From positions 1,426,001 to 1,490,000 of the forward strand of contig NZ_LT629732.1 in assembly GCF_900104745.1 (NCBI RefSeq): a DNA stretch of 64,000 bases. The letters run 5' to 3'. This document shows positions 33,985-57,985 of this stretch, piece after piece. The stretch's first letter is position 1. The number at the start of each line of letters is the position of its first letter. This stretch comes from Actinopolymorpha singaporensis (GTDB lineage Bacteria > Actinomycetota > Actinomycetes > Propionibacteriales > Actinopolymorphaceae). The notes beneath the pieces were generated by a model. That model searched no databases. It was not told the DNA's origin and worked only from the letters and a program-made list of their open reading frames with translations. The translations under genes were made by a program, and so were the position numbers.

Positions 33985-34241
33985 TCGCGGCGCCCTTCTC
34001 GGAACGGCTTCTCGGAACGGCTGTGGTGGTTCGAGCGTAGGAGGTCGGACCGACATGGGTGGCGCCGGACCGGCCCGGGTAGTTTCATTGGCTGGCGCAA
34101 CCCAGGGTGAGCTTCTCTGTGTTCAGCCACTGTCGGTACCCGCGGCTAGGGTGGGGTGGATTTTCAGCGCGCGGTCGTGACAGGCCGGAGTCAGTACGAC
34201 ACCAGGCGGCCAGACGTGCCCGTCGACCGAGGAGGGCCGAC

Positions 34242-35396
34242 GTGATCGAGTTCGAATCCGTGACCAAGCGTTACCCCGATGGAACCGTCGCAGTCGACCA
34301 GGTGGACCTTCGGGCTCCGTCCGGGGAGATCACGGTGCTCGTCGGACCCTCCGGATGCGGGAAAACGACGTCCCTGCGGATGATCAACCGCATGGTGGAG
34401 CCGACGTCGGGTCGCATCCTGATCGACGGCAAGGACACCGGCACCACCAATCCCGCGCAGCTTCGCCGCGGCATCGGCTACGTCATCCAGCACGCGGGCC
34501 TGTTTCCCCACCGCACGGTGGTCGACAACGTGGCGACCGTCCCGTTGCTGTTGGGGTGGAGCAGAAAGAAGGCGCGTGCGCACGCTGCGGAGTTGATCCA
34601 ACGCGTCGGCCTGGACGCCCATCTGGGCGACCGCTATCCCGCGCAGCTGTCCGGCGGCCAGCAGCAGCGGGTGGGCGTGGCGCGGGCGCTGGCCGCCGAT
34701 CCTCCGGTGATGCTGATGGACGAGCCGTTCAGCGCCGTCGACCCGGTCGTACGTGAGAGCCTGCAGGAGGAGTTCCTGCGCCTGCAGGACGAGCTGGACA
34801 AGACGATCGTGTTCGTGACGCACGACATCGACGAGGCGATCAAGCTGGGAGACCGGGTGGCGGTTTTCCGTACCGGCGGGCGACTCGCGCAGTTCGCCGA
34901 GCCGAAGCAGCTGCTGGAGCACCCGGCGGACGAGTTCGTCGCGGGCTTCGTCGGCAAGGACCGGGGCTACCGCGCCCTTTCGTTCACCCCGGCCGACGGG
35001 ATCTCCCTGAACGACGAACCGACAGTCCGGCTGGGCGCTCCGATCGCCGACGCCCGGGCGGTCGCCGTCGACGGCTGGGTCCTGGTTGTCGACGACGAGC
35101 GGCGTCCGCAAGGCTGGCTTGACGCACAGAACTCCCGTCAGGACGCCGTTACGAGCGACCACCTCAACCGCGCCGGCACGGTCGCGTCGGCCGACGGCTC
35201 CCTGCGCGGAGTGCTCGACGCCGCGCTCTCCTCACCCACCGGACGCGGTGTGGTCGCCGACCCGGCCGGGCGCCTGCTCGGCACCGTCACCGCGGGCCCG
35301 GTCCTCTCCCGGCTCGACCAGCCGACAGCCGGCCGCACCACCTCCGACGGGGCCGGTCCCGACCGGCCCGCCGAGCCGGAGGTCGCGAACCCGTGA
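34242..35396 (+). CDS. Compatible-solute ABC importer, ATPase (OpuCA-like)
   Basis: 384 residues. ATPase domain: Walker A GPSGCGKTTS, Q-loop YVIQHAGLF, signature LSGGQQQRVGVARAL, Walker B VMLMDEPFSAVD and switch VTHDIDEA. The C-terminal 140 residues are CBS-like regulatory modules (ADARAVAVDGWVLVVDDERR; ADGSLRGVLDAALSS), as in ionic-strength-sensing OpuA/OpuC ATPases. GTG 34242 with GGAGG upstream. The stop overlaps the first permease gene (GTGA). It energises uptake of glycine betaine/choline-type solutes. Confidence 0.93.
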   Translation: MIEFESVTKRYPDGTVAVDQVDLRAPSGEITVLVGPSGCGKTTSLRMINRMVEPTSGRILIDGKDTGTTNPAQLRRGIGYVIQHAGLFPHRTVVDNVATVPLLLGWSRKKARAHAAELIQRVGLDAHLGDRYPAQLSGGQQQRVGVARALAADPPVMLMDEPFSAVDPVVRESLQEEFLRLQDELDKTIVFVTHDIDEAIKLGDRVAVFRTGGRLAQFAEPKQLLEHPADEFVAGFVGKDRGYRALSFTPADGISLNDEPTVRLGAPIADARAVAVDGWVLVVDDERRPQGWLDAQNSRQDAVTSDHLNRAGTVASADGSLRGVLDAALSSPTGRGVVADPAGRLLGTVTAGPVLSRLDQPTAGRTTSDGAGPDRPAEPEVANP

Positions 35397-36043
35397 TCTC
35401 CTGGCTGGGCGACAACGCCGGAACGGTCACGTCGTACTTCCTGCAGCACGTCTGGCTGGCGACCCTGCCGCTCGTGATCGCCCTGGTACTGGCGATCCCG
35501 CTGGGCTGGGTGGCCAGGCGGTTCGGCTGGTTGCACACGCCGATGATCGGCCTCACCGGGCTGCTCTACACCATCCCGTCGCTGGCGCTGTTCGTCGTAC
35601 TCCCGCTCATCCTGGGCACCCAGATCCTCGACCCGATCAACGTCGTGGTGGCGTTGACGATCTACTCGCTGGCGCTGCTGGTCCGCACCGTTGCCGACGG
35701 GCTGGGCTCTGTTCCCGGTGACGTCGAGCAGGCCGCGACCGCGATGGGCTACACAGGGTTCCGCAGGTTCTTCTCTGTCGACCTGCCGGTGGCGGTGCCG
35801 GTCATCGCAGCGGGCATGCGCGTCGCCGCGGTGTCCAACGTCAGCCTGGTCGCGGTGTCGGCGCTGCTCGGCGTACCCCAACTCGGCCTGCTGTTCACCG
35901 ACGGGCTCAACCGGAACTACTTCCCGCCGCTGGTCGCCGGGATCGTTTTGTGTGTCGTCCTCGCTCTCGCGCTGGACGCGCTGATCCTGCTCCTGACCCG
36001 GCTGCTGGCCCCGTGGCAGCGCATCGCGAGGGGGACCTCATGA
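35393..36043 (+). CDS. Compatible-solute ABC importer, permease 1
   Basis: 216 residues, about five to six membrane helices. The BPD_transp_1 EAA-like loop reads VPGDVEQAATAMGYTGFRRF and the N-terminal part YFLQHVWLATLPLVIALVLA. Typical OpuCB-type subunit. GTG start coupled to the ATPase stop, and ATGA overlap with the next permease, so all are one operon. Confidence 0.92.
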   Translation: MISWLGDNAGTVTSYFLQHVWLATLPLVIALVLAIPLGWVARRFGWLHTPMIGLTGLLYTIPSLALFVVLPLILGTQILDPINVVVALTIYSLALLVRTVADGLGSVPGDVEQAATAMGYTGFRRFFSVDLPVAVPVIAAGMRVAAVSNVSLVAVSALLGVPQLGLLFTDGLNRNYFPPLVAGIVLCVVLALALDALILLLTRLLAPWQRIARGTS

Positions 36044-36813
36044 TCTCGTCGGTGATCGGATGGTTCGCCGACCCGGACCACTGGAGCGGCGGGGACGGCA
36101 TTCCCGCCCGCCTGCTCGAGCATCTGGAGTATTCCCTGGCGGCGCTGCTGATCGCGGCGCTGATCGGCATCCCGCTCGGTCTCTACATCGGGCACACCGG
36201 GCGCGGTGCGTTCCTCGTCGCCGGGCTGGCCAACTCCCTGCGCGCCCTGCCCTCACTGGGTCTGCTCGTGGTGATGGCGCTGCTGCTGGGCCCCCGGATC
36301 CACGGCGACCTGGTCTACGTCATCCCGAGCATCTTCGTCCTGGTCGTGCTCGCCGTCCCACCGATCCTGGCCAGTACGTACTCCGGAGTGCAGGGAGTCG
36401 ACCCGGCCGCCCGCGACGCGGCGTACGGCATGGGCATGACCGGCATGAGCGTGCTCACGAAGGTCGAGGCGCCGTGCGCACTGCCGCTTATCCTGTCCGG
36501 CGTACGCAGCGCGATGCTGCAGATCATCGCCACCGCCACCATCGCCGCGATCACCTCCCTCGGCGGTCTGGGCCGGTTCATCGTCGACGGCCAGGCCGTC
36601 CGCGACTACGCCCAGATGGTCGGCGGCTCGATCCTGGTCGCCGCGCTGGCCATCGTGGTCGAGACGGTGCTGGCCCTGGTGCAGCGGCTGGTGGTCCCGG
36701 CCGGGCTGACGAGCAGGGGACAGCGACGTGCGTCGGCGGTCTCGGCCGCGCGCACGGAGATGGAGCCGGACGCCGAGGTGCCCGGCCAGGAACAACTCGC
36801 CGGAGCCCGCTGA
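36040..36813 (+). CDS. Compatible-solute ABC importer, permease 2
   Basis: 257 residues, about six membrane helices. The family loop is VDPAARDAAYGMGMTGMSVL; helices include AALLIAALIGIPLGLYIGH and GLLVVMALLLGPRI. OpuCD-type. The ATG at 36040 overlaps the preceding stop. The C-terminal 40 residues are a charged tail without family features. Confidence 0.92.
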   Translation: MISSVIGWFADPDHWSGGDGIPARLLEHLEYSLAALLIAALIGIPLGLYIGHTGRGAFLVAGLANSLRALPSLGLLVVMALLLGPRIHGDLVYVIPSIFVLVVLAVPPILASTYSGVQGVDPAARDAAYGMGMTGMSVLTKVEAPCALPLILSGVRSAMLQIIATATIAAITSLGGLGRFIVDGQAVRDYAQMVGGSILVAALAIVVETVLALVQRLVVPAGLTSRGQRRASAVSAARTEMEPDAEVPGQEQLAGAR

Positions 36814-36896
36814 TCCAGGACCCGCACGCCTGACACACCCGACAATGTCGGCGCGACCAAGCCGCGCAGCCGTCAGCGACGAAGGAGATACCCGTC

Positions 36897-37817
36897 ATGA
36901 AGTTCGCAAAGATCGCCGCCGCGGCGACGGTCGCGTTGCTCGCCCTCGCCGGGTGCGGGGGCGGCAACAACCCGATGGCCGAGAAGACCAAGGCTCCCGC
37001 CACCAAGGCGCCGGCCGACACGATCGTGGTCGGCTCAGCCGACTTCCCCGAGAGCACGCTGATCGGTGAGATCTACGCCGGTGCGCTGCGCGCCAAGGGC
37101 GTCAAGGTCACCACGAAGTTCGGCATCGGCGCCCGGGAGATCTACCTCAAGGCGCTCGAGGACGGGTCGATCGACCTCATCCCCGAGTACACCGGAAACC
37201 TCCTGCAGGCGTTCGACGAGAAGACGACCGCCTCCACCTCCGACGACGTCTACTCGGAGCTGAAGAAGGCCACCCCGAGCAAGCTCACCGTGCTCGAGCA
37301 GGCGAGCGCGGAGGACAAGGACGCGGTGGCGGTGACCAAGGAGACCGCCGCGAAGTACAAGCTGAAGAAGCTCAGCGACCTCAAGCCAGTCGCCGGCAAG
37401 CTGGTCCTCGGCGGGCCGCCGGAGTGGAAGACCCGCGAGCGTTCCGGCGTCCCCGCGCTCAAGAAGGTCTACGGCCTGCAGTTCAAGGGCGACTTCAAGT
37501 CGCTCAAGGGCACCCTGATCCCGCAGGCGCTGGCCAACGGGCAGGTCGACGCGGCCAACATGTTCACCACCGACCCGATGGTGCAGAAGAACGGCTTCGT
37601 TCTGCTGGACGACGACAAGGCCCTCTTCCCGGCGCAGAACGTCGTGCCGCTGATCAACAAGTCCAAGGCGTCGCCGAAGGTCGAGGAGGCGCTGAACGGC
37701 GTCTCGGCCAAGCTCGACACCAAGACTCTGCTGTCGCTGAACACCCAGGTCGTCGTGGACAAGAAGGACGCGTCCGCGGTGGCCAAGCAGTGGCTCGCCC
37801 AGAACGGCCTCGTCTGA
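36897..37817 (+). CDS. Compatible-solute ABC importer, substrate-binding lipoprotein
   Basis: 306 residues. Signal peptide with lipobox LALAGC (Cys20) anchors it outside the membrane. The OpuAC/OsmF fold is seen in VVGSADFPESTLIGEIYAGA, DLIPEYTGNLLQAFD and FTTDPMVQKNGFVLLDDDK. Last gene of the importer, 83 bp after the second permease. Ligand class (betaine, choline, carnitine) is inferred from the family. A GC-rich hairpin follows. Confidence 0.93.
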   Translation: MKFAKIAAAATVALLALAGCGGGNNPMAEKTKAPATKAPADTIVVGSADFPESTLIGEIYAGALRAKGVKVTTKFGIGAREIYLKALEDGSIDLIPEYTGNLLQAFDEKTTASTSDDVYSELKKATPSKLTVLEQASAEDKDAVAVTKETAAKYKLKKLSDLKPVAGKLVLGGPPEWKTRERSGVPALKKVYGLQFKGDFKSLKGTLIPQALANGQVDAANMFTTDPMVQKNGFVLLDDDKALFPAQNVVPLINKSKASPKVEEALNGVSAKLDTKTLLSLNTQVVVDKKDASAVAKQWLAQNGLV

Positions 37818-39473: not shown

Positions 39474-39584
39474 CGCGGGGCGGCTGACGTACGTCTGACG
39501 GGAGTACGCAGGGCCCACCCGCTGAGGCCCGCCGTCGGCGACGGTCTTCGGACCGGCACTGGCTGACGGCGGGCACTGACCGAC

Positions 39585-39652
39585 GGTGGTGGATGGCTGC
39601 CGGTGGTGGATGGCTGCCGGTGGTGGATGGCTGCCGGTGGTGGATGGCTGCC
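39585..39652. repeat. Four perfect copies of a 17-bp unit
   Basis: GGTGGTGGATGGCTGCC is repeated four times without gap, about 150 bp upstream of hutH, and then decays. The rest of 39474-39801 shows no gene. The repeat has no spacers, so it is not CRISPR. Confidence 0.9.
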
Positions 39653-39801
39653 GGTTGTCAGTGGTTCGCGGCGCCGGCCGACCTGACGGCGCCGTCGCCG
39701 TAGCCGTCGAATGTTCACCGCGCCGCCGCGCGCACGTGTTGTCACGCAGGGGATTCCCGTCATCGCTGGCATGGCGGCCTCGCGCGCAGTGGAATTGGTG
39801 C

Positions 39802-41496
39802 ATGGTCGACTTCGCCCAGGCCGACACGGTCCAGGTCGGCACCGGACCGCTCACCGAGACCGACGTCGTCGCGGTGGCCCGGTACGCAGCACGGGTGATC
39901 CTCGCCCCCGAGGCGTTGACCGCCCTGGCCGCCGGGCGGGCGGCGGTGGAACGGCTCGGCTCGTCGACCTCACCGGCGTACGGCATATCCACCGGTTTCG
40001 GCGCGCTCGCGACCCGGCACATTCCGCGCGAGTCGCGGGCCCGGTTGCAGCGCAGCCTCATCCGCTCCCACGCCGCCGGTTCGGGTCCGGAGACGGAGAC
40101 CGAGGTCGTCCGGGCGATGATGTTGCTGCGGCTTTCGACCCTCGCCACCGGCCGGACGGGCGTGCGGCCGGAGACGGCGGAGACGTTGCAGGCGCTGCTG
40201 AACGCCGGGATCACGCCGGTTGTCCCGGAGTACGGCAGTCTCGGATGCTCGGGTGATCTCGCTCCGCTGGCACACGTGGCGCTGGCCCTCACCGGCGAGG
40301 GCGAGGTCCGTACGGCAGTCGGCTCCGGGCTGGAGTCGGCCGGCATGGTGCAACCCGCCGCCCAGGCCCTCGCCTCCGCCGGCATCACGCCGGTCGTGCT
40401 CGCGGAGAAGGAGGGCCTCGCCCTCATCAACGGCACCGACGGCATGCTCGGGATGCTGGTTCTCGCCTGTCACGACCTGGACCGGCTGATCCAGACCGCG
40501 GACCTCACCGCCGCGATGAGTGTGGAGGCGCTGCTCGGCACCGACCGGGTGTTCGCCCCGGAGCTCCAGGCGCTGCGTCCGCATCCGGGCCCGATCGCCT
40601 CCGCCGCCCACATGCGGGCGCTGCTGGCAGGCTCCGCGATCGTGGCGAGTCACGCCGGCCCGGCCGACACCCGCGTCCAGGACGCGTACTCCCTGCGTTG
40701 TGCACCACAGGTCAACGGCGCCGCGCGGGACACGCTGGCGCACGCGCGGTCGGTGGCGGGGTACGAGCTCGCCGCGGCGATCGACAATCCGGTGGTGCTG
40801 CGGGACGGCCGGGTCGAGTCCAACGGCAACTTCCACGGCGCGCCGCTCGCCTATGTGCTCGACTTCCTCGCGATCGTCGCCGCCGACGTGGCGAGCATGT
40901 CCGAACGCCGTACCGACCGGTTCCTCGACGTGGCCCGCAACCACGGCCTGCCGGCGTTCCTCGCCGACGACCCGGGCCTGGACTCCGGCCACATGATCGC
41001 GCAGTACACCGCGGCGGCGATCGTCAGCGAACTGAAGCGGCTCGCCGTACCGTCCAGCGTGGACTCCATCCCCTCCTCGGCGATGCAGGAGGACCACGTT
41101 TCGATGGGCTGGTCGGCAGGCCGCAAGCTACGGCAGTCGGTCGACGGGCTCACCCGGGTGCTGGCGATCGAGTTGCTGACCGCGGCGCGGGCACTGGACC
41201 TGCGGGTCCCGCTGGCACCGGCACCGGCGACCGCCGCCGCGCTGCGCGAGCTCCGGTTGCGGGTCTTCGGGCCCGGACCGGACCGGCAGATGTCCAGGGA
41301 GATCGAGGCCGCGGTGGCCGTGGTCATCGACGGCCTCGCCCTCGCCGCCGCGGACACGGTGGTCGAGCGCGGCGCACTGGCGGAGCCGGGCAGTGCGGAC
41401 GAGTCTGGTGGGGAGGAGTCAGGTGGGGGTGGCGGCCTCGAGCGGCCACGCCGGCCCCACCGAACACACCGACCACCGCCTGGAGGTGCCGGATGA
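39802..41496 (+). CDS. hutH: Histidine ammonia-lyase
   Basis: 564 residues; deaminates histidine to urocanate, first step of histidine degradation. The MIO cofactor triad is Cys149-Ser150-Gly151 in [15 protein letters not shown], where most bacteria have Ala-Ser-Gly; my recollection is that streptomycete enzymes also have Cys. Other family blocks: [73 protein letters not shown] and [17 protein letters not shown]. The last 45 residues are a Gly/Ser/Glu/Pro-rich tail not seen in the family core. ATG 39802; stop overlaps hutU. Confidence 0.95.
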
Positions 41497-43226
41497 GCCA
41501 CTCGCCGGTCGACTCGCATTCCAGCCACCCGCGCACGGTGACCGCACCGCGCGGCACCACCCTGCACGCCCGCGGCTGGCCGCAGGAGGCGGCGCTGCGG
41601 ATGCTGCAGAACAACCTCGACCCCGAGGTCGCCGAGCATCCGCAGGACCTCGTCGTGTACGGCGGAAGTGGCCGCGCCGCCCGTGACTGGTCGAGCTTCG
41701 ACGCCCTCGTGCGTACGCTCACCACGCTCGCCGGCGACGAGACGATGCTGGTGCAGTCCGGCCGGCCGGTCGGGGTGCTGCGTACCGACGAGTGGGCGCC
41801 CAGGGTGCTGATCGCCAACTCCCACCTGGTGCCCGACTGGGCGACGTGGGAGGAGTTCCGCCGGCTGGAAGCGCTCGGACTGACGATGTACGGCCAGATG
41901 ACGGCCGGCTCGTGGATCTACATCGGCACGCAGGGCATTCTGCAGGGCACGTACGAGACGTTCGCCGCGGTCGCCGCCCGGCTCGCCGAGCGCGGCGTGA
42001 CCCCTCCGGAGTCCTCGGGCTCGCTGGCCGGGACGCTCACCGTCACCGCCGGGCTGGGCGGGATGGGCGGTGCCCAGCCGCTCGCGGTGACCATGAACGG
42101 CGGAGTGGTGATCTGCGTGGAGTGCGACGAGAGCCGGATCCGCCGTCGCCTCGACCACCGTTACCTCGACGTCCGCGCGGACTCGGTGGACCACGCCCTC
42201 CGGCTGGCCGAGGAGGCGGTGCGGGCGCGCAGGCCGCTGTCGGTGGGCGTGCTCGGCAACGCCGCCGAGGTGGTGCCGGCGCTGCTCGCCCGGAGCGTCC
42301 CGGTCGACGTGGTGACCGACCAGACCTCCGCGCACGACCCGCTGATGTACCTCCCGCTCGGGGTGGCGTTCGACGACTGGGCCGCCGAGAGGGCACGTGA
42401 TCCCGAAGGGCTGGTGGAGCGTGCGCGGGAGTCGATGGCCCGCCACGTCGAGGCGATGGTGGGCTTCCTTGACGCGGGCGCGGAGGTGTTCGACTACGGC
42501 AACTCCATTCGCGACGAGGCCCGCAAGGGTGGGTTGACGAGGGCCTTCGCCTTCCCCGGCTTCGTTCCGGCGTACATCCGGCCGCTGTTCTGCGAGGGCA
42601 AGGGGCCGTTCCGCTGGGTGGCACTGTCCGGCGACCCGGCTGACATCGCGCGCACCGACAAGGCCGTGCTCGAGCTCTTCCCCGACAACGAGCCGCTGGT
42701 CCGGTGGATCCGGCTGGCGGGCGAGCGGGTCCACTTCCAGGGGCTGCCGGCGCGGATCTGCTGGCTCGGCTACGGCGAACGCGACCGGGCGGGCCTGCGG
42801 TTCAACGAACTGGTCGCCTCCGGAGAGGTCACCGCGCCGATCGTGATCGGCCGGGACCACCTCGACGCCGGCTCCGTCGCCTCCCCCTACCGCGAGACCG
42901 AGGCGATGGCCGACGGCTCGGACGCGATCGCCGACTGGCCGCTGCTGAACGCGATGGTGAACGTCGCCTCCGGCGCCGCGTGGGTCTCCCTGCACCACGG
43001 CGGCGGCGTCGGCATCGGCCGGTCGATCCACGCCGGCCAGGTCACCGTCGCCGACGGAACACCCCTCGCGGCCCGTAAGCTCGCCCGGGTGCTGGGCAAC
43101 GACCCGGCCACCGGGGTCATCCGGCACGTCGACGCGGGGTACGAACGAGCCGAGGAGACCGCGCGCCGGCTCGGCGTACGCACACCCATGCGGGAAGGAC
43201 CGGTGGAAGGATCGGTGCAGCCATGA
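41493..43226 (+). CDS. hutU: Urocanate hydratase
   Basis: 577 residues; converts urocanate to imidazolonepropionate using tightly bound NAD. The NAD loop is [12 protein letters not shown] (187-198). The catalytic cysteine is Cys423 in [30 protein letters not shown] and the C-terminal [19 protein letters not shown] are family signatures. Start by ATGA overlap with hutH and stop by ATGA overlap with the M20 gene, so the three are translationally coupled. Confidence 0.96.
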
Positions 43227-44533
43227 ATGCCGGCGAGGGCGGAGCGTCGGGCGGGCCGTCGGACGCAGCGTCGGGCGGAGCGTTGGCCGGCGGCTTCGAG
43301 CAGCTGTGGAAGGCACTGGCGCCGATCGGCCGGGACGACCGCACCGGCGGATACCACCGCTACTCGTGGACACCGGCGCACCGTGAGTGCGAGCGGTGGT
43401 TCCGGGACGAGGCCGAACGCCGCGACCTGACCGTGGAGGCCGACGGCAACGGCAACCTGGTCGCGTGGTGGCGGCCGGATCCCACGCGGGTGACCGGGGG
43501 TGTGGTCACCGGGAGCCACCTGGACTCCGTACCCGACGGCGGCGGCTACGACGGGCCGCTCGGTGTGGTCTCGGCGTTCGCCGCGCTGGACGCGATCCGG
43601 GCCGCCGGGAGTGGCGGCGGGACGGCCGGTGGGACTGCCGGCGGGGCCGGGCGGACCCGGCCGCTGGGGATCGCGGTGTTCGCGGAGGAGGAGGGCGCGC
43701 GGTTCGGGGTGCCCTGCCTGGGCTCGCGGCTGCTCACCGGAGCGCTGGAGCCGAACCGGGCGCGTGAGCTGCGCGACGCCGACGGCGTGCCGCTCACCGA
43801 CGCGATGGAGCGGGCCGGCGTACCCGCCGACCTCGGCCCCGCACCCGACCTGCTGCAGGCGCCGTCGGCGTTCGTCGAACTCCACGTCGAACAGGGCAGG
43901 GCGCTGGCCGACCTGGGCGAGCCCGTCGGTCTCGCGCGAGACATCTGGCCGCACGGACGCTGGCGGTTCGAGTTCGGCGGGCGGGCGGACCACGCCGGGA
44001 CGGCCGCGATGGCCGACCGGCACGACCCGATGCTGACGTACGCCATGACCGCGCTCGCCGCCAACAAACGCGCCCGGCTCACCCAGGCCCGGACGACGTT
44101 CGGCCGGGTGCAGGTGGAGCCGAACGCCACGAACGCCGTACCCTCCCTCGTCCGCGCCTGGCTGGACGCCCGCGCCGCCGACGAGGCCGGCCTGGACGCC
44201 CTGGTGGAGGAGATCCGCCGCCAGGCCGGTGACCGCGCCCAGCGCGACGGCACCCGGCTTGAGGTGCACCCGGAGTCGTGGACGCCGCGCGTGGAGTTCG
44301 ACGTACGCCTGCGTGACCGGTTGGCCGCCCGGCTCGGGGCGCCGCCGGTGCTGTCCACCCAGGCCGGGCACGACGCGGGCATCCTCGCCGCCGCCGGGAT
44401 CCCCGCCGCGATGCTGTTCGTCCGCAACCCCACGGGTGTGTCGCACGCGCCGGAGGAGCACGCCGAACCCGCCGACTGTCTCGCCGGTGTGGACGCCCTG
44501 GCTGCCGTCCTCACCGACCTGCTGGCCGGGTGA
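43223..44533 (+). CDS. M20-family amidohydrolase (allantoate amidohydrolase-like) in hut operon
   Basis: 436 residues of the hydantoinase/carbamoylase (M20C-like) family. Metal ligands: His and Asp in [19 protein letters not shown], Glu pair in [10 protein letters not shown], and His in [15 protein letters not shown]; the late His is in [14 protein letters not shown]. Family enzymes hydrolyse N-carbamoyl amino acids or allantoate. Its coupled position between hutU and hutF, with no hutG in view, suggests it hydrolyses an N-substituted glutamate such as N-formylglutamate. That function is an inference. A Gly/Ala repeat near residues 125-145 is probably a loop insertion. Confidence 0.87.
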
Positions 44534-44558
44534 CCGGGCAGGCACGGATGAGTAACGG

Positions 44559-45968
44559 ATGAACCCGGAGCCGACCGCGTACTGGTGCGCGCTCGCCTGG
44601 CTGCCGCCCGGCCAGGCCGAGCCCGGCGTGGTGGTGGAGGTGGCAGGGACGCGGATCACGGCGGTCCGCACGAACGTGCCTCGGCCGCCCGCCTCGGCCG
44701 TCCAGCTACCCGGGCTGACCATCCCCGGCCTGGCCGACGTGCACTCGCACGCCTTCCACCGGGCGCTGCGCGGGCGCACCCAGGACCCGCTCGAAGGTAC
44801 CGACGACGGTGGCGGCAGCGGCCGCACCGGGACCAGCGGCGGGACCGGCACGTTCTGGACCTGGCGGGACCGGATGTACGAGGTCGCCGAGCGGCTGGAT
44901 CCCGACAGCTACTACGACCTCGCCGTCGCGGTGTACGCCGAACTCGCCCTGGCCGGAGTCACCTGTGTCGGGGAGTTCCACTACCTCCACCACGGGCCGG
45001 GCGGCCGCCGCTACGACGACCCGAACGCGATGGCCGACATGCTGATCGCCGCCGCCCGTACCGCAGGCGTCCGCATCTGCCTGCTCGACGCGTGCTACCT
45101 CACCGGCGGGATCGGTGCACCGCTGGCCGGAGTGCAGGAACGCTTCGGCGACGGGGACGCCGAGCGGTGGGCGAGCCGCGTGGACGCGCTGTACGAGAGA
45201 TACGCCGGCGCCGACGACGTGACGATCGGGGCCGCGGTGCACTCGGTGCGTGCCGTACCCGCCGAGCAGCTTCCGAGCGTGGCCGCGTGGGCGCACGCCC
45301 GGGCCGCACCGCTGCACGTCCACGTCGCCGAGCAGCCTCGCGAGAACGCCGACTGCGTCGCGGCGTACGGCATGGATCCCGTACGCCTGCTGTTCGACCG
45401 CGGTGTCCTCGGCCCCCGCGCCACGGCGGTGCACGCCACGCACCTGGACGACGGCGGCGTCGGCCTGCTCGCCCAGACCGGCACGACCGTGTGCCTGTGT
45501 CCCACGACCGAACGCGACCTCGCCGACGGACTCGGTCCGGCGGGCGCGCTGGCCCGGGCCGGCGCCACCCTCGTCCTGGGCAGCGACAGCCACGCGGTCG
45601 CCGACCTCTTCGCCGAGGCCCGCGCCCTGGAATGGGGTGAGCGCCTCGCCACCGGACGCCGCGGCCACTGGTCCGCGTCCGCCCTGCTCACCGTGTGTAC
45701 CGAGGCGGGCCATCGTGCGCTCGGCTTCCCCGACACCGGGGTGATCGAGGTCGGCGCCCGCGCCGACCTGGTGAGCGTCCGGCTGGACTCGGTGCGTACC
45801 GCCGGAACCGACCCGGCACACGCCGCGCAGGCGGTGGTGTTCGCCGCCACCGCGGCCGACGTCGACTCGGTGGTCAGCGGTGGCGTGCAGGTCGTGGCCG
45901 GCAGTCGGCACCGACGGGTGGACGACGTCGCTGGCCGGCTGGACGCTGCGGTTCGTGCCGTGTGGTGA
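44559..45968 (+). CDS. hutF: Formimidoylglutamate deiminase
   Basis: 469 residues of the amidohydrolase superfamily. Metal-binding HxH is in ADVHSHAFHRALRGR; then TCVGEFHYLHHGPGG, LLDACYLTGGIG, a His in PLHVHVAEQPRENADC, a His in AVHATHLDD, and catalytic Asp in LVLGSDSHAVADLF. The enzyme deiminates N-formimidoylglutamate to N-formylglutamate. It starts 25 bp after the M20 gene. A Gly-rich insertion (DDGGGSGRTGTSGGTG) interrupts the region after the first motif. hutI normally follows in related clusters but is absent here. Confidence 0.93.
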   Translation: MNPEPTAYWCALAWLPPGQAEPGVVVEVAGTRITAVRTNVPRPPASAVQLPGLTIPGLADVHSHAFHRALRGRTQDPLEGTDDGGGSGRTGTSGGTGTFWTWRDRMYEVAERLDPDSYYDLAVAVYAELALAGVTCVGEFHYLHHGPGGRRYDDPNAMADMLIAAARTAGVRICLLDACYLTGGIGAPLAGVQERFGDGDAERWASRVDALYERYAGADDVTIGAAVHSVRAVPAEQLPSVAAWAHARAAPLHVHVAEQPRENADCVAAYGMDPVRLLFDRGVLGPRATAVHATHLDDGGVGLLAQTGTTVCLCPTTERDLADGLGPAGALARAGATLVLGSDSHAVADLFAEARALEWGERLATGRRGHWSASALLTVCTEAGHRALGFPDTGVIEVGARADLVSVRLDSVRTAGTDPAHAAQAVVFAATAADVDSVVSGGVQVVAGSRHRRVDDVAGRLDAAVRAVW

Positions 45969-48888: not shown

Positions 48889-50026
48889 CTCGGAGGCTTG
48901 TGGTTATGTCTCGTTCGGTCGGTATCGATCTTGGTACGACGAATTCTGTGGTGGCGGTTCTTGAGGGTGGGGAGCCGACGGTTGTGACGAATGCGGAGGG
49001 TGCGCGGACGACTCCGTCGGTGGTGGCGTTTGCGAAGAATGGTGAGGTGTTGGTGGGGGAGGTGGCGAAGCGGCAGGCGGTGACGAATGTTGATCGGACG
49101 ATTCGTTCGGTGAAGCGTCATATGGGGTCGGGTTGGTCGGCGTCTGTGGATGGGAAGCCGTTTACGGCGCAGCAGATTTCTGCGTTTGTGTTGCAGAAGT
49201 TGAAGCGTGATGCGGAGGCGTATCTGGGGGAGTCGGTGACGGATGCGGTGATTACCGTGCCGGCGTATTTTTCGGATGCGCAGCGTCAGGCGACGAAGGA
49301 GGCTGGTGAGATCGCTGGGTTGAATGTTCAGCGGATCATCAATGAGCCGACTGCGGCTGCGTTGGCGTATGGGTTGGACAAGGGGTCGGATCAGACGATT
49401 CTGGTGTTCGATCTGGGTGGTGGGACCTTCGATGTCTCGTTGTTGGAGATTGGTGAGGGTGTGTTCGAGGTGAAGGCGACCTCGGGTGACAATCATCTGG
49501 GTGGGGATGACTGGGATGCCAAGATCGTGGACTGGTTGGTGACTCAGTTCAGGAACAAGCATGGTGTGGATCTTGGGGCGGACAAGATTGCGAAGCAGCG
49601 GCTGACGGAGGCTGCGGAGAAGGCGAAGATCGAGTTGTCGTCGGCGTCGGAGACGTCGATCAATCTGCCGTATGTGACGTTGGGTGAGTCGGGTCCGTTG
49701 CATTTGGACGAGAAGTTGACCCGGGCTGAGTTCCAGCGGATGACGGGGGATTTGTTGGAGCGGTGTCGTCGGCCGTTCCAGCAGGTGTTGAAGGATGGCG
49801 GGGTCGAGGTGGGCAGGATCGATCACGTGATTCTTGTGGGTGGGTCGACGCGGATGCCTGCGGTGGCGGATCTGGTGCGGGAGCTTACGGGTGGTAAGGA
49901 GCCGCACAAGGGTGTGAACCCTGATGAGGTGGTGGCGATTGGTGCGTCGTTGCAGTCGGGTGTGTTGCGGGGTGAGGTGAAGGATGTCTTGTTGTTGGAT
50001 GTCACTCCCCTGTCCCTCGGCATCGC
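48889..50026 (+). repeat. Identical block 1 of the two dnaK genes
   Basis: 1138 bp beginning 17 bp upstream of the first dnaK ATG (including its ribosome-binding site) are identical to 56094-57231 by line-by-line reading. Identity stops abruptly after the codon run for LSLGI. Confidence 0.9.
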
Positions 50027-50789
50027 CACCAAGGGTGGTGTGTTCACCAAGATCATCGAGCGCAACACCACCATTCCCACGAAGCGTTCCGAAGTGTTCA
50101 CCACGGCCGAGGACAACCAGCCCTCGGTGATGATCGAGGTTTTCCAGGGCGAACGCGAGATGGCCCGCGACAACAAGTCGCTGGGCAACTTCGAGCTCAC
50201 CGGACTTCCGCCCGCACCCCGAAACGTCCCGCAGATCGAGGTCGCGTTCGACATTGATGCGAACGGGATTGTGCATGTGTCTGCGAAGGATCTGGGGACG
50301 GGTCGTGAGCAGAAGATGACGGTGACCGGTGGGTCTGCCCTCCCGAAGGAGGACATCGACCGGATGGTCCGGGACGCGGAGCAGTATGCGGAGGAGGACC
50401 GTCGCCGTCGTGAGGCCGCGGAGTTGCGTAACCAGGCGGATTCGCTGGTGTATCAGACGGAGAAGTTCGTGGCGGACAACCCTGACAGTGTTCCGGCGGA
50501 GGTGAAGTCGGAGGTCGAGCAGGATGTCGCGGCGTTGAAGAAGGCGTTGGAGGGTGAGGACAACGATGCCTTGAAGTCGGCGTTCGACAAGTTGTCGGAG
50601 TCGCGGACGAAGATGGGTTCGGCGATCTATGCCAATGCCCAGCAGGCCCAGGGCACCCCGGCCGGCGACACCGGCGCGGGCGCTGGTGACGCCTCCACCG
50701 GCGGCGGGGACGACGACGTGGTCGACGCCGAGATCGTCGACGAAGACAAGCCCGCGGGCGGCAACGAGGGACAGGGCGGTCAGAAGTGA
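48906..50789 (+). CDS. dnaK: Chaperone DnaK (operon copy)
   Basis: 627 residues, Hsp70 family; ATP-driven folding chaperone with GrpE and DnaJ. Nucleotide-binding blocks: [10 protein letters not shown]-like [63 protein letters not shown] and [12 protein letters not shown]. The substrate domain carries [17 protein letters not shown] and [15 protein letters not shown], standard for DnaK, although the canonical Glu of LSLGIE is Ala here. C-terminal lid with [20 protein letters not shown] tail. GGAGG lies 9 nt before ATG 48906. Shares two blocks with the copy at 56111. Confidence 0.97.
50247..50714 (+). repeat. Near-identical block 2 of the two dnaK genes
   Basis: 468 bp match 57467-57934 with a single synonymous difference (C at 50327, G at 57547). 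It covers the end of the substrate-binding domain and most of the lid. The 220 bp before it (50027-50246) differ extensively from the 235 bp at 57232-57466. Confidence 0.9.
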
Positions 50790-56093: not shown

Positions 56094-57231
56094 CTCGGAG
56101 GCTTGTGGTTATGTCTCGTTCGGTCGGTATCGATCTTGGTACGACGAATTCTGTGGTGGCGGTTCTTGAGGGTGGGGAGCCGACGGTTGTGACGAATGCG
56201 GAGGGTGCGCGGACGACTCCGTCGGTGGTGGCGTTTGCGAAGAATGGTGAGGTGTTGGTGGGGGAGGTGGCGAAGCGGCAGGCGGTGACGAATGTTGATC
56301 GGACGATTCGTTCGGTGAAGCGTCATATGGGGTCGGGTTGGTCGGCGTCTGTGGATGGGAAGCCGTTTACGGCGCAGCAGATTTCTGCGTTTGTGTTGCA
56401 GAAGTTGAAGCGTGATGCGGAGGCGTATCTGGGGGAGTCGGTGACGGATGCGGTGATTACCGTGCCGGCGTATTTTTCGGATGCGCAGCGTCAGGCGACG
56501 AAGGAGGCTGGTGAGATCGCTGGGTTGAATGTTCAGCGGATCATCAATGAGCCGACTGCGGCTGCGTTGGCGTATGGGTTGGACAAGGGGTCGGATCAGA
56601 CGATTCTGGTGTTCGATCTGGGTGGTGGGACCTTCGATGTCTCGTTGTTGGAGATTGGTGAGGGTGTGTTCGAGGTGAAGGCGACCTCGGGTGACAATCA
56701 TCTGGGTGGGGATGACTGGGATGCCAAGATCGTGGACTGGTTGGTGACTCAGTTCAGGAACAAGCATGGTGTGGATCTTGGGGCGGACAAGATTGCGAAG
56801 CAGCGGCTGACGGAGGCTGCGGAGAAGGCGAAGATCGAGTTGTCGTCGGCGTCGGAGACGTCGATCAATCTGCCGTATGTGACGTTGGGTGAGTCGGGTC
56901 CGTTGCATTTGGACGAGAAGTTGACCCGGGCTGAGTTCCAGCGGATGACGGGGGATTTGTTGGAGCGGTGTCGTCGGCCGTTCCAGCAGGTGTTGAAGGA
57001 TGGCGGGGTCGAGGTGGGCAGGATCGATCACGTGATTCTTGTGGGTGGGTCGACGCGGATGCCTGCGGTGGCGGATCTGGTGCGGGAGCTTACGGGTGGT
57101 AAGGAGCCGCACAAGGGTGTGAACCCTGATGAGGTGGTGGCGATTGGTGCGTCGTTGCAGTCGGGTGTGTTGCGGGGTGAGGTGAAGGATGTCTTGTTGT
57201 TGGATGTCACTCCCCTGTCCCTCGGCATCGC
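56094..57231 (+). repeat. Identical block 1, second dnaK copy
   Basis: Partner of 48889-50026, offset 7205 bp. Identity begins 17 bp before the ATG, so it includes the shared ribosome-binding site but no promoter sequence. Confidence 0.9.
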
Positions 57232-57985
57232 GTCGGGCCGACTGTCCGGCCAGGGCGGCATCTTCACCAAGATCATCGAGCGGAACACGACGATCCCGAC
57301 CACCAAGTCGGAGATCTTCTCCACCGCGGCCGACGGACAGTCGTCCGTCCTGATCGAGGTGTTCCAGGGCGAGCGGGCCATGGCGGCCGACAACAAGTCC
57401 CTCGGGAACTTCGAGCTCACCGGCATCGCGCCGGCGCCGCGCGGCGTACCCAAGATCGAGGTGTCCTTCGACATTGATGCGAACGGGATTGTGCATGTGT
57501 CTGCGAAGGATCTGGGGACGGGTCGTGAGCAGAAGATGACGGTGACGGGTGGGTCTGCCCTCCCGAAGGAGGACATCGACCGGATGGTCCGGGACGCGGA
57601 GCAGTATGCGGAGGAGGACCGTCGCCGTCGTGAGGCCGCGGAGTTGCGTAACCAGGCGGATTCGCTGGTGTATCAGACGGAGAAGTTCGTGGCGGACAAC
57701 CCTGACAGTGTTCCGGCGGAGGTGAAGTCGGAGGTCGAGCAGGATGTCGCGGCGTTGAAGAAGGCGTTGGAGGGTGAGGACAACGATGCCTTGAAGTCGG
57801 CGTTCGACAAGTTGTCGGAGTCGCGGACGAAGATGGGTTCGGCGATCTATGCCAATGCCCAGCAGGCCCAGGGCACCCCGGCCGGCGACACCGGCGCGGG
57901 CGCTGGTGACGCCTCCACCGGCGGCGGGGACGACCTCGTGGAGGGCGAGGTCGTGGACGAGGACAAGCCCGGCGATCAGAAGTAA
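56111..57985 (+). CDS. Chaperone DnaK, second copy
   Basis: 624 residues. The ATPase domain is identical to that of the first copy. The substrate-binding segment differs: [20 protein letters not shown] with a five-residue insertion relative to TKGGVFTK, then [20 protein letters not shown] and [18 protein letters not shown]. The lid is again identical until the acidic tail ([18 protein letters not shown]). It has no grpE or dnaJ of its own and no HAIR site. It could be a paralogue with altered client range sharing the same nucleotide-exchange machinery; that is an inference from where the differences fall. Confidence 0.94.
57467..57934 (+). repeat. Near-identical block 2, second dnaK copy
   Basis: Partner of 50247-50714, offset 7220 bp (15 bp more than block 1, matching the five-codon insertion in the divergent segment). 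One synonymous mismatch. Confidence 0.9.

Follow-up and report, generated by a model that had tools for sequence, protein, structure and literature searches.

The stretch of DNA analysed here (64,000 nucleotides of Actinopolymorpha singaporensis, contig NZ_LT629732.1, positions 1,426,001 to 1,490,000; hereafter the window) contains an operon for histidine utilization (hut) in which a gene for an amidohydrolase of the M20 family, called M20 below, sits between hutU and hutF. The four genes run head to tail as one unit, hutH-hutU-M20-hutF, at 39802-45968, all on the + strand:

39802-41496, + strand: hutH, histidine ammonia-lyase (TIGR01225, 621.6 bits, cut-off 539; PF00221, 610.6 bits)
41493-43226, + strand: hutU, urocanate hydratase (TIGR01228, 876.9 bits, cut-off 375)
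43223-44533, + strand: M20 amidohydrolase of the hydantoinase/carbamoylase type, predicted N-formyl-L-glutamate hydrolase (NF006770, 581.5 bits, cut-off 372)
44559-45968, + strand: hutF, N-formimidoyl-L-glutamate deiminase (NF006681, 626.6 bits, cut-off 362; TIGR02022, 458.7 bits, cut-off 413)

Each of the four proteins scores above the curated cut-off of an NCBIfam model; all four frames are open over their full length and match their families strongly, so they are no chance frames. Successive genes share 4 bp (ATGA) at hutH/hutU and at hutU/M20, and 25 bp separate M20 from hutF, in agreement with an earlier, sequence-only reading that had called the four genes translationally coupled or nearly so. 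That reading had also proposed that the M20 protein, hidden under an allantoate label, is a non-orthologous N-formylglutamate hydrolase standing in for HutG. A place for hutU in ergothioneine breakdown, as thiourocanate hydratase, was considered and rejected, as its product reaches 630.6 bits against NF058530 (cut-off 930) and 876.9 bits against TIGR01228.

A hut pathway lacking the known HutG types

We searched the whole genome of the organism (one contig of 6.40 Mb, completeness 99.38) for the other genes of the pathway. hutI, which had been reported missing from the cluster, is indeed absent there but present in the genome, unlinked to the operon (C1:6153427-6154497, 370.5 bits against a cut-off of 298; stretch read as L008). 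The HutF-type pathway set is complete, with hutH, hutU and hutF in the window and hutI elsewhere. The reported lack of HutG, by contrast, extends to the whole genome, where the profile search found no PF05013 N-formylglutamate amidohydrolase and no hutG outside the cluster. The best own-genome match to the formimidoylglutamase model TIGR01227 was 57.2 bits against a cut-off of 229; glutamate formiminotransferase was not searched for. The best allantoinase match in the genome reached 241 bits against a cut-off of 357.85, and a second, weak match to NF006770 was counted.

The TIGR01227 cut-off was passed in none of 49 genomes. It may be strict, because genome G177 has an arginase-family match of 153 bits, below that cut-off, about 280 bp from hutU (contig C7, L229). 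This gene is possibly a formimidoylglutamase.

We favour the reading in which M20 hydrolyses N-formyl-L-glutamate in place of HutG, at a probability of roughly 0.6, because of its gene context and phylogeny, the lack of known HutG types and of an allantoinase, and the presence of a peptide-deformylase homologue in the same region of other hut operons (see below). From the observed gene order, clade, co-occurrence, residue conservation and absence of known HutG types we infer a substrate and a chemistry. HutH would convert histidine to urocanate, HutU urocanate to imidazolonepropionate, the unlinked HutI imidazolonepropionate to N-formimidoylglutamate, and HutF N-formimidoylglutamate to N-formylglutamate and ammonia. 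M20 would then carry out the last step, in which N-formyl-L-glutamate and water yield L-glutamate and formate. It would thus share its reaction and pathway position with HutG (PF05013/TIGR02017), but the two families are unrelated; searches with the M20 protein gave no PF05013 in Pfam and no HutG model in NCBIfam.

The sole Pfam match of M20 is PF01546 (47.3 bits), and it passes the hydantoinase/carbamoylase model TIGR01879 (233.9 bits, cut-off 204). No relatives appeared in a scan of viral contigs. H99, D110, E156, E157, H221, H257, N304, R317, H383 and H408 are identical in all 57 aligned rows of the clade described below. We take their roles to be those known from L-carbamoylases, mapped by alignment: a two-metal centre (H99, D110, E157, H221, H408) would activate water with E156 as the base, and H257, N304 and R317 would hold the alpha-carboxylate. 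A clade-specific R401-N402-P403 loop together with H244 might, as a speculation, bind the side-chain carboxylate. The best solved-structure match, PDB 3n5f (175 bits), is the L-carbamoylase AmaB; it shares the metal-binding and carboxylate-binding positions but falls outside the hut clade and lacks that clade's H244, W313 and N402. Because a Geobacillus stearothermophilus L-carbamoylase of the same superfamily reportedly handles N-formyl amino acids with higher efficiency than their N-carbamoyl counterparts (PMC7431475), N-formyl chemistry is within reach of M20.

Distribution and phylogeny of the hut-linked M20 proteins

Each model was run against 296 genomes of the phylum, and the arrangement proved common. 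NF006770 was over its cut-off in 29, hutF was detected at E <= 1e-60 in 62 (41 over cut-off), hutU in 115 and PF05013 in 25. hutF was found in 27 of the 29 M20-bearing genomes (26 of these 27 over the TIGR02022 cut-off), compared with 35 of the other 267 (both 27, M20 alone 2, hutF alone 35, neither 232; Fisher p = 6e-19, uncorrected for kinship). All 27 pairs lie on the same contig and no more than 1.3 kb apart, 24 of them with the matched stretches within 200 bp of each other. Among 57 relatives, a sample that shares G000 and G214 with the phylum sample, 45 carry both genes, one M20 alone (G214), one hutF alone (G346) and ten neither (p = 3e-9). PF05013 is missing from 43 of the 45. At the newly read M20 loci of relatives, hutF lies within the 1.5-kb flank in 26 of 28 cases. 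M20 remains with hutH-hutU in G301, where hutF is located elsewhere, and L206 is a second M20 copy of G312, whose other copy adjoins hutF.

The neighbouring urocanase varies in one genus, g204 (L213, L214, L216; genomes of 2.3-2.6 Mb), where a divergent form with about 36% identity to the window's HutU lies beside M20 and hutF. Two of these were scored and, with the gene truncated where the locus ends, fell slightly short of the hutU cut-off (360 and 364 against 375 bits).

For phylogeny we built a tree of 87 rows. Of these, 57 belong to this subfamily and six to a second kind linked to hut genes; the others are three references and 21 further rows, among which L038 and L181 are the same sequence. 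Within the 57, the five rows L019, L206, L027, L032 and L215 do not adjoin hutF; the residue screen used a 54-row hut set, with L019, L206 and L027 left out and shown apart. The 57 rows form one clade (support 100/99), and the AmaB, UAH and AllC references fall outside it. L215, from G301, is beside hutU, and L032 is a second copy of G042 with no hut gene in its 1.5-kb flanks.

These data bear on the NCBI name, under which M20 would be an allantoate amidohydrolase with an incidental location among hut genes. In favour of that name, the cut-off of NF006770, the model so named, is exceeded by a wide margin, and 17 of the 29 M20-bearing genomes have an allantoinase over cut-off. The other 12, the window's own included, do not, and linkage of M20 to hutF is near-constant. 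The AllC model TIGR03176 was matched at 169.4 bits, far below its cut-off of 597.75; AllC (PDB 1z2l) shares the superfamily and catalytic residues of M20 but lies outside the hut clade. Moreover, in G062 and G214 the M20 gene found near allantoinase, at a distance of 1.3-1.4 kb, is a different paralogue, also from outside the 57-row clade. Both genomes hold the two paralogues, which speaks against allantoate as the substrate of the hut copy. We regard allantoate as very improbable and N-formylglutamate as the better candidate of the two.

The M20 proteins of G214 and G268 and the second copy of G312 form a nested clade (support 100/96) that is not beside hutF. The G268 gene has ammonium transporter, ornithine-cyclodeaminase-like and FAD-oxidase genes as neighbours, and those of G214 (L086) and G312 (L228:3006-10487) have glutamine-synthetase-like, glutamate-synthase-like and FAD-oxidase genes. 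The cluster of the G312 member also encodes HutD (PF05962, 105.7 bits), a protein that binds N-formylglutamate. Because the nested clade retains H244, D265, W313, R401 and N402, its substrate may be unchanged, and its clusters in G312 and G214 are possible candidates for a further histidine-derived pathway ending in glutamate.

A different M20 lineage occupies the hut clusters of six genomes of family f19 (G011, G026, G041, G087, G195, G248). It forms a separate clade (100/100), lacks H244, R401 and N402, has T in place of N304, and entered hut clusters separately. In six more f19 genomes with hutF, the stretch examined contained no M20; in four of these cases the contig was short or truncated.

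A peptide-deformylase homologue in other hut clusters

In nine genomes with hutF and without an NF006770 match, the hut cluster includes a gene for a peptide-deformylase homologue of some 192 residues. It occupies the hutU-hutF interval in seven of them, the hutF-hutI interval in one and a position after hutI in one:

L059:7007-7579, hut-cluster peptide-deformylase homologue
L060:4934-5515, hut-cluster peptide-deformylase homologue
L065:8144-8716, hut-cluster peptide-deformylase homologue
L067:5800-6381, hut-cluster peptide-deformylase homologue
L070:7762-8334, hut-cluster peptide-deformylase homologue
L076:7330-7905, hut-cluster peptide-deformylase homologue
L080:5036-5614, hut-cluster peptide-deformylase homologue
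L082:4143-4724, hut-cluster peptide-deformylase homologue
L084:7694-8266, hut-cluster peptide-deformylase homologue

The GxGxAAxQ, EGCLS and HExDH motifs are intact, and an RYPYKP motif invariant, in all nine. Three were scored against the peptide deformylase models, and all passed NF001159 (146-164 bits, cut-off 125) and two passed TIGR00079; this fold is unrelated to that of M20. A structure model built from 42 sequences had a mean pLDDT of 96.1, with the peptide deformylase 1sv2 as its best solved match (TM 0.86).

Scores for the hut-type homologue separated the genomes, with at least 246 bits in 10 of 64 and no more than 127 in all others. Each of the ten also carries another, weaker peptide deformylase, and two (G091, G247) have a PF05013 match. 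None of the 29 M20-bearing genomes is among the ten, and none of the 64 holds both enzymes. Across the 62 genomes with hutF, 27 have M20, 10 the deformylase, 25 neither and none both (one-sided p = 0.0017, uncorrected for kinship). The window's own genome lacks the hut type, its two distant peptide deformylases, both outside the operon, scoring 93 and 89 bits.

We then considered how closely this family is tied to histidine breakdown, scanning named genome records and taking the best 80 loci among the matches listed. Linkage was defined as hut genes within the fetched stretch (at most 6 kb each side); the queries were the hut proteins encoded in the window, together with HutI of the same genome. 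Of the 33 best of these 80 loci (L091-L123, where L091 is the contig of G218 again), 19 have hut genes, namely all 16 whose titles are actinobacterial and three of the other 17; hut genes were found at none of the remaining 47. The 14 unlinked loci among the 33 best are mostly from Myxococcota and Proteobacteria and count against a role of the deformylase family in hut alone. Close relatives with no hut genes in the stretch include those of Myxococcota/Deltaproteobacteria at L094, L102, L103, L105-L107, L110, L113, L115 and L117.

The occurrence of a deformylase homologue in hut clusters suggests that its substrate is formylated, and the formylated product of HutF is N-formylglutamate; the hut-cluster homologues are probable N-formylglutamate deformylases. 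If hydrolases of two unrelated families replace each other in the same operon, the most economical explanation is that each of them cleaves N-formylglutamate. In titles and abstract openings of the open-access literature we found no account of a peptide deformylase in hut operons or of its alternation with M20, and this is the most novel part of the analysis. We give about even odds to a wider proposal, that within this one operon the last step of histidine breakdown arose anew several times: through the dedicated M20 clade, through the second M20 lineage in another actinobacterial family, and through a dedicated peptide-deformylase paralogue, marked by RYPYKP, that has moved from protein maturation to the deformylation of N-formylglutamate.

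The same observations bear on a second substrate. Hydantoin-5-propionate is an oxidation by-product of imidazolonepropionate, and M20 could be a salvage enzyme of the hut pathway that cleaves N-carbamoyl-L-glutamate derived from it, much as ErtE acts in ergothioneine breakdown. The M20 superfamily contains carbamoylases, and the NCBIfam match that names a glutamate derivative is ErtE (NF058540, N-carbamyl-L-glutamate amidohydrolase), by its model name a related enzyme that frees glutamate in the last step of a pathway resembling that of histidine. Such an activity would also explain the negative deformylase assay described below. However, M20 reaches only 245 bits against the ErtE cut-off of 520, and the window's hutU encodes a true urocanase. 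The N-formylglutamate made by HutF would moreover be left without an enzyme in a genome lacking the known HutG types, and the deformylase homologue in the same region of other hut clusters would go unexplained. We consider N-carbamoylglutamate distinctly improbable as the substrate.

The published prediction and the substrate of M20

The hypothesis that an M20 protein of hut clusters acts on N-formylglutamate is already published and contested. In Table 3, case 20, Gerdes et al. 2011 (PMC3223725) list At5g43600 (COG 0624) as an 'Alternative form of N-formylglutamate deformylase (EC 3.5.1.68)', a SEED prediction for histidine degradation; that table entry gives it as invalidated, with the remark 'No deformylase activity detected in Streptomyces avermitilis protein'. 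The pathway and the hypothesis are the same as ours, and the present analysis adds the clade structure, the co-occurrence and the deformylase swap. Beyond that paper, nothing on hut-linked M20 proteins was found in titles and abstract openings of the literature.

The passages concerned give no bacterial locus tag, and the S. avermitilis test protein very probably belonged to the same hut-linked subfamily. The result bears on the window's enzyme because eight genomes of genus g4 (putative Streptomyces) carry M20 beside hutF with key residues identical to those of the window's protein. Seven of these eight also have a distant PF05013 protein (only that of G023 was scored, with 44.5 bits where the HutG cut-off is 278.75), so they have a second candidate for the N-formylglutamate enzyme, which the window's genome lacks. 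The negative assay may reflect metal or folding problems, or may be correct.

Taken as it stands, that assay weighs against the proposed role of M20, and so do several of our own observations. A single-sequence AlphaFold2 model of M20 was unusable (mean pLDDT 37.6), and the residue roles given above therefore rest on alignment and on what is known of L-carbamoylases. Two of the 29 M20-bearing genomes, G214 and G268, lack hutF. Conversely, G346 has a contiguous hutH-hutU-hutF (L230:5446-9997), with no M20 (E <= 1e-100) and no PF05013 in its genome, so that some other solution exists there. Nineteen of the 62 hutF-bearing genomes have neither M20, nor the hut-type deformylase, nor the second M20 lineage; they include six whose hutF scores below 300 bits, G129, where a contig end holds a fragment of M20, and G177 with its arginase-like match. 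Together with G346 they show that either the pathway is completed in further ways or the survey has gaps. Finally, PF05013 occurs in 10 of the 29 M20-bearing genomes, either on a different contig or at a distance above 1 Mb, and strict exclusivity of the two families is not borne out.

The PF05013 proteins of two of these ten genomes reach 44.5 and 70.5 bits against the TIGR02017 (HutG) cut-off of 278.75, and those of four genomes, two of them M20-bearing, 44.5-90.7 bits. No hut genes were detected around PF05013 genes in six genomes (L219-L224, stretches of 14-20 kb); L225 ends at the contig end, and in L226 the query missed the PF05013 gene itself.

Several of these points would fit a third alternative, in which the hut-linked M20 has an accessory role or a different acyl amino acid derived from histidine as its substrate, and an unrecognised, unlinked enzyme cleaves N-formylglutamate. 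Such enzymes probably exist, given G346 and most of the 19 unclassified genomes, in which a hydrolase was not identified, and both the negative S. avermitilis assay as tabulated and the members of the same clade that lie among glutamine-synthetase-like, glutamate-synthase-like and FAD-oxidase genes without hutF point the same way. Yet a further enzyme would then be needed in every one of the 43 relatives in which M20 and hutF occur without PF05013, and M20 stays beside hutU or hutF. We judge this alternative unlikely. The proposal of a non-orthologous N-formylglutamate hydrolase thus gains from context, phylogeny, the missing HutG and allantoinase and the deformylase swap, but it had been made before and met a negative assay in the table entry of PMC3223725.

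Upstream of the operon lies one further set of genes with a conceivable connection to it:

34107-37817, + strand: ABC transporter, consisting of an ATPase, two permeases and an OpuAC-type binding protein (PF00005, PF00528 twice, PF04069)

Homologues of all four of these OpuA-like genes occur near hut genes in G017, G041, G200 and G227 (L053, L056, L072, L077). The transporter possibly serves histidine uptake, and its membership of the operon is only putative. A perfect 17-bp tandem repeat of 4.2 copies lies upstream of hutH, at 39584-39655. Elsewhere in the window are two dnaK (HSP70) genes (48906-50786 and 56105-57982), about 5 kb apart, with products 94.5% identical over 636 residues.

If M20 does hydrolyse N-formyl-L-glutamate, a hole in the histidine pathway of this organism would be filled, the published negative assay would need revisiting, and the NCBI equivalog model would be misnaming many actinobacterial proteins as allantoate amidohydrolase. 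The deformylase homologue is an independent prediction, under which an essential family of housekeeping enzymes would have been diverted to small-molecule catabolism.

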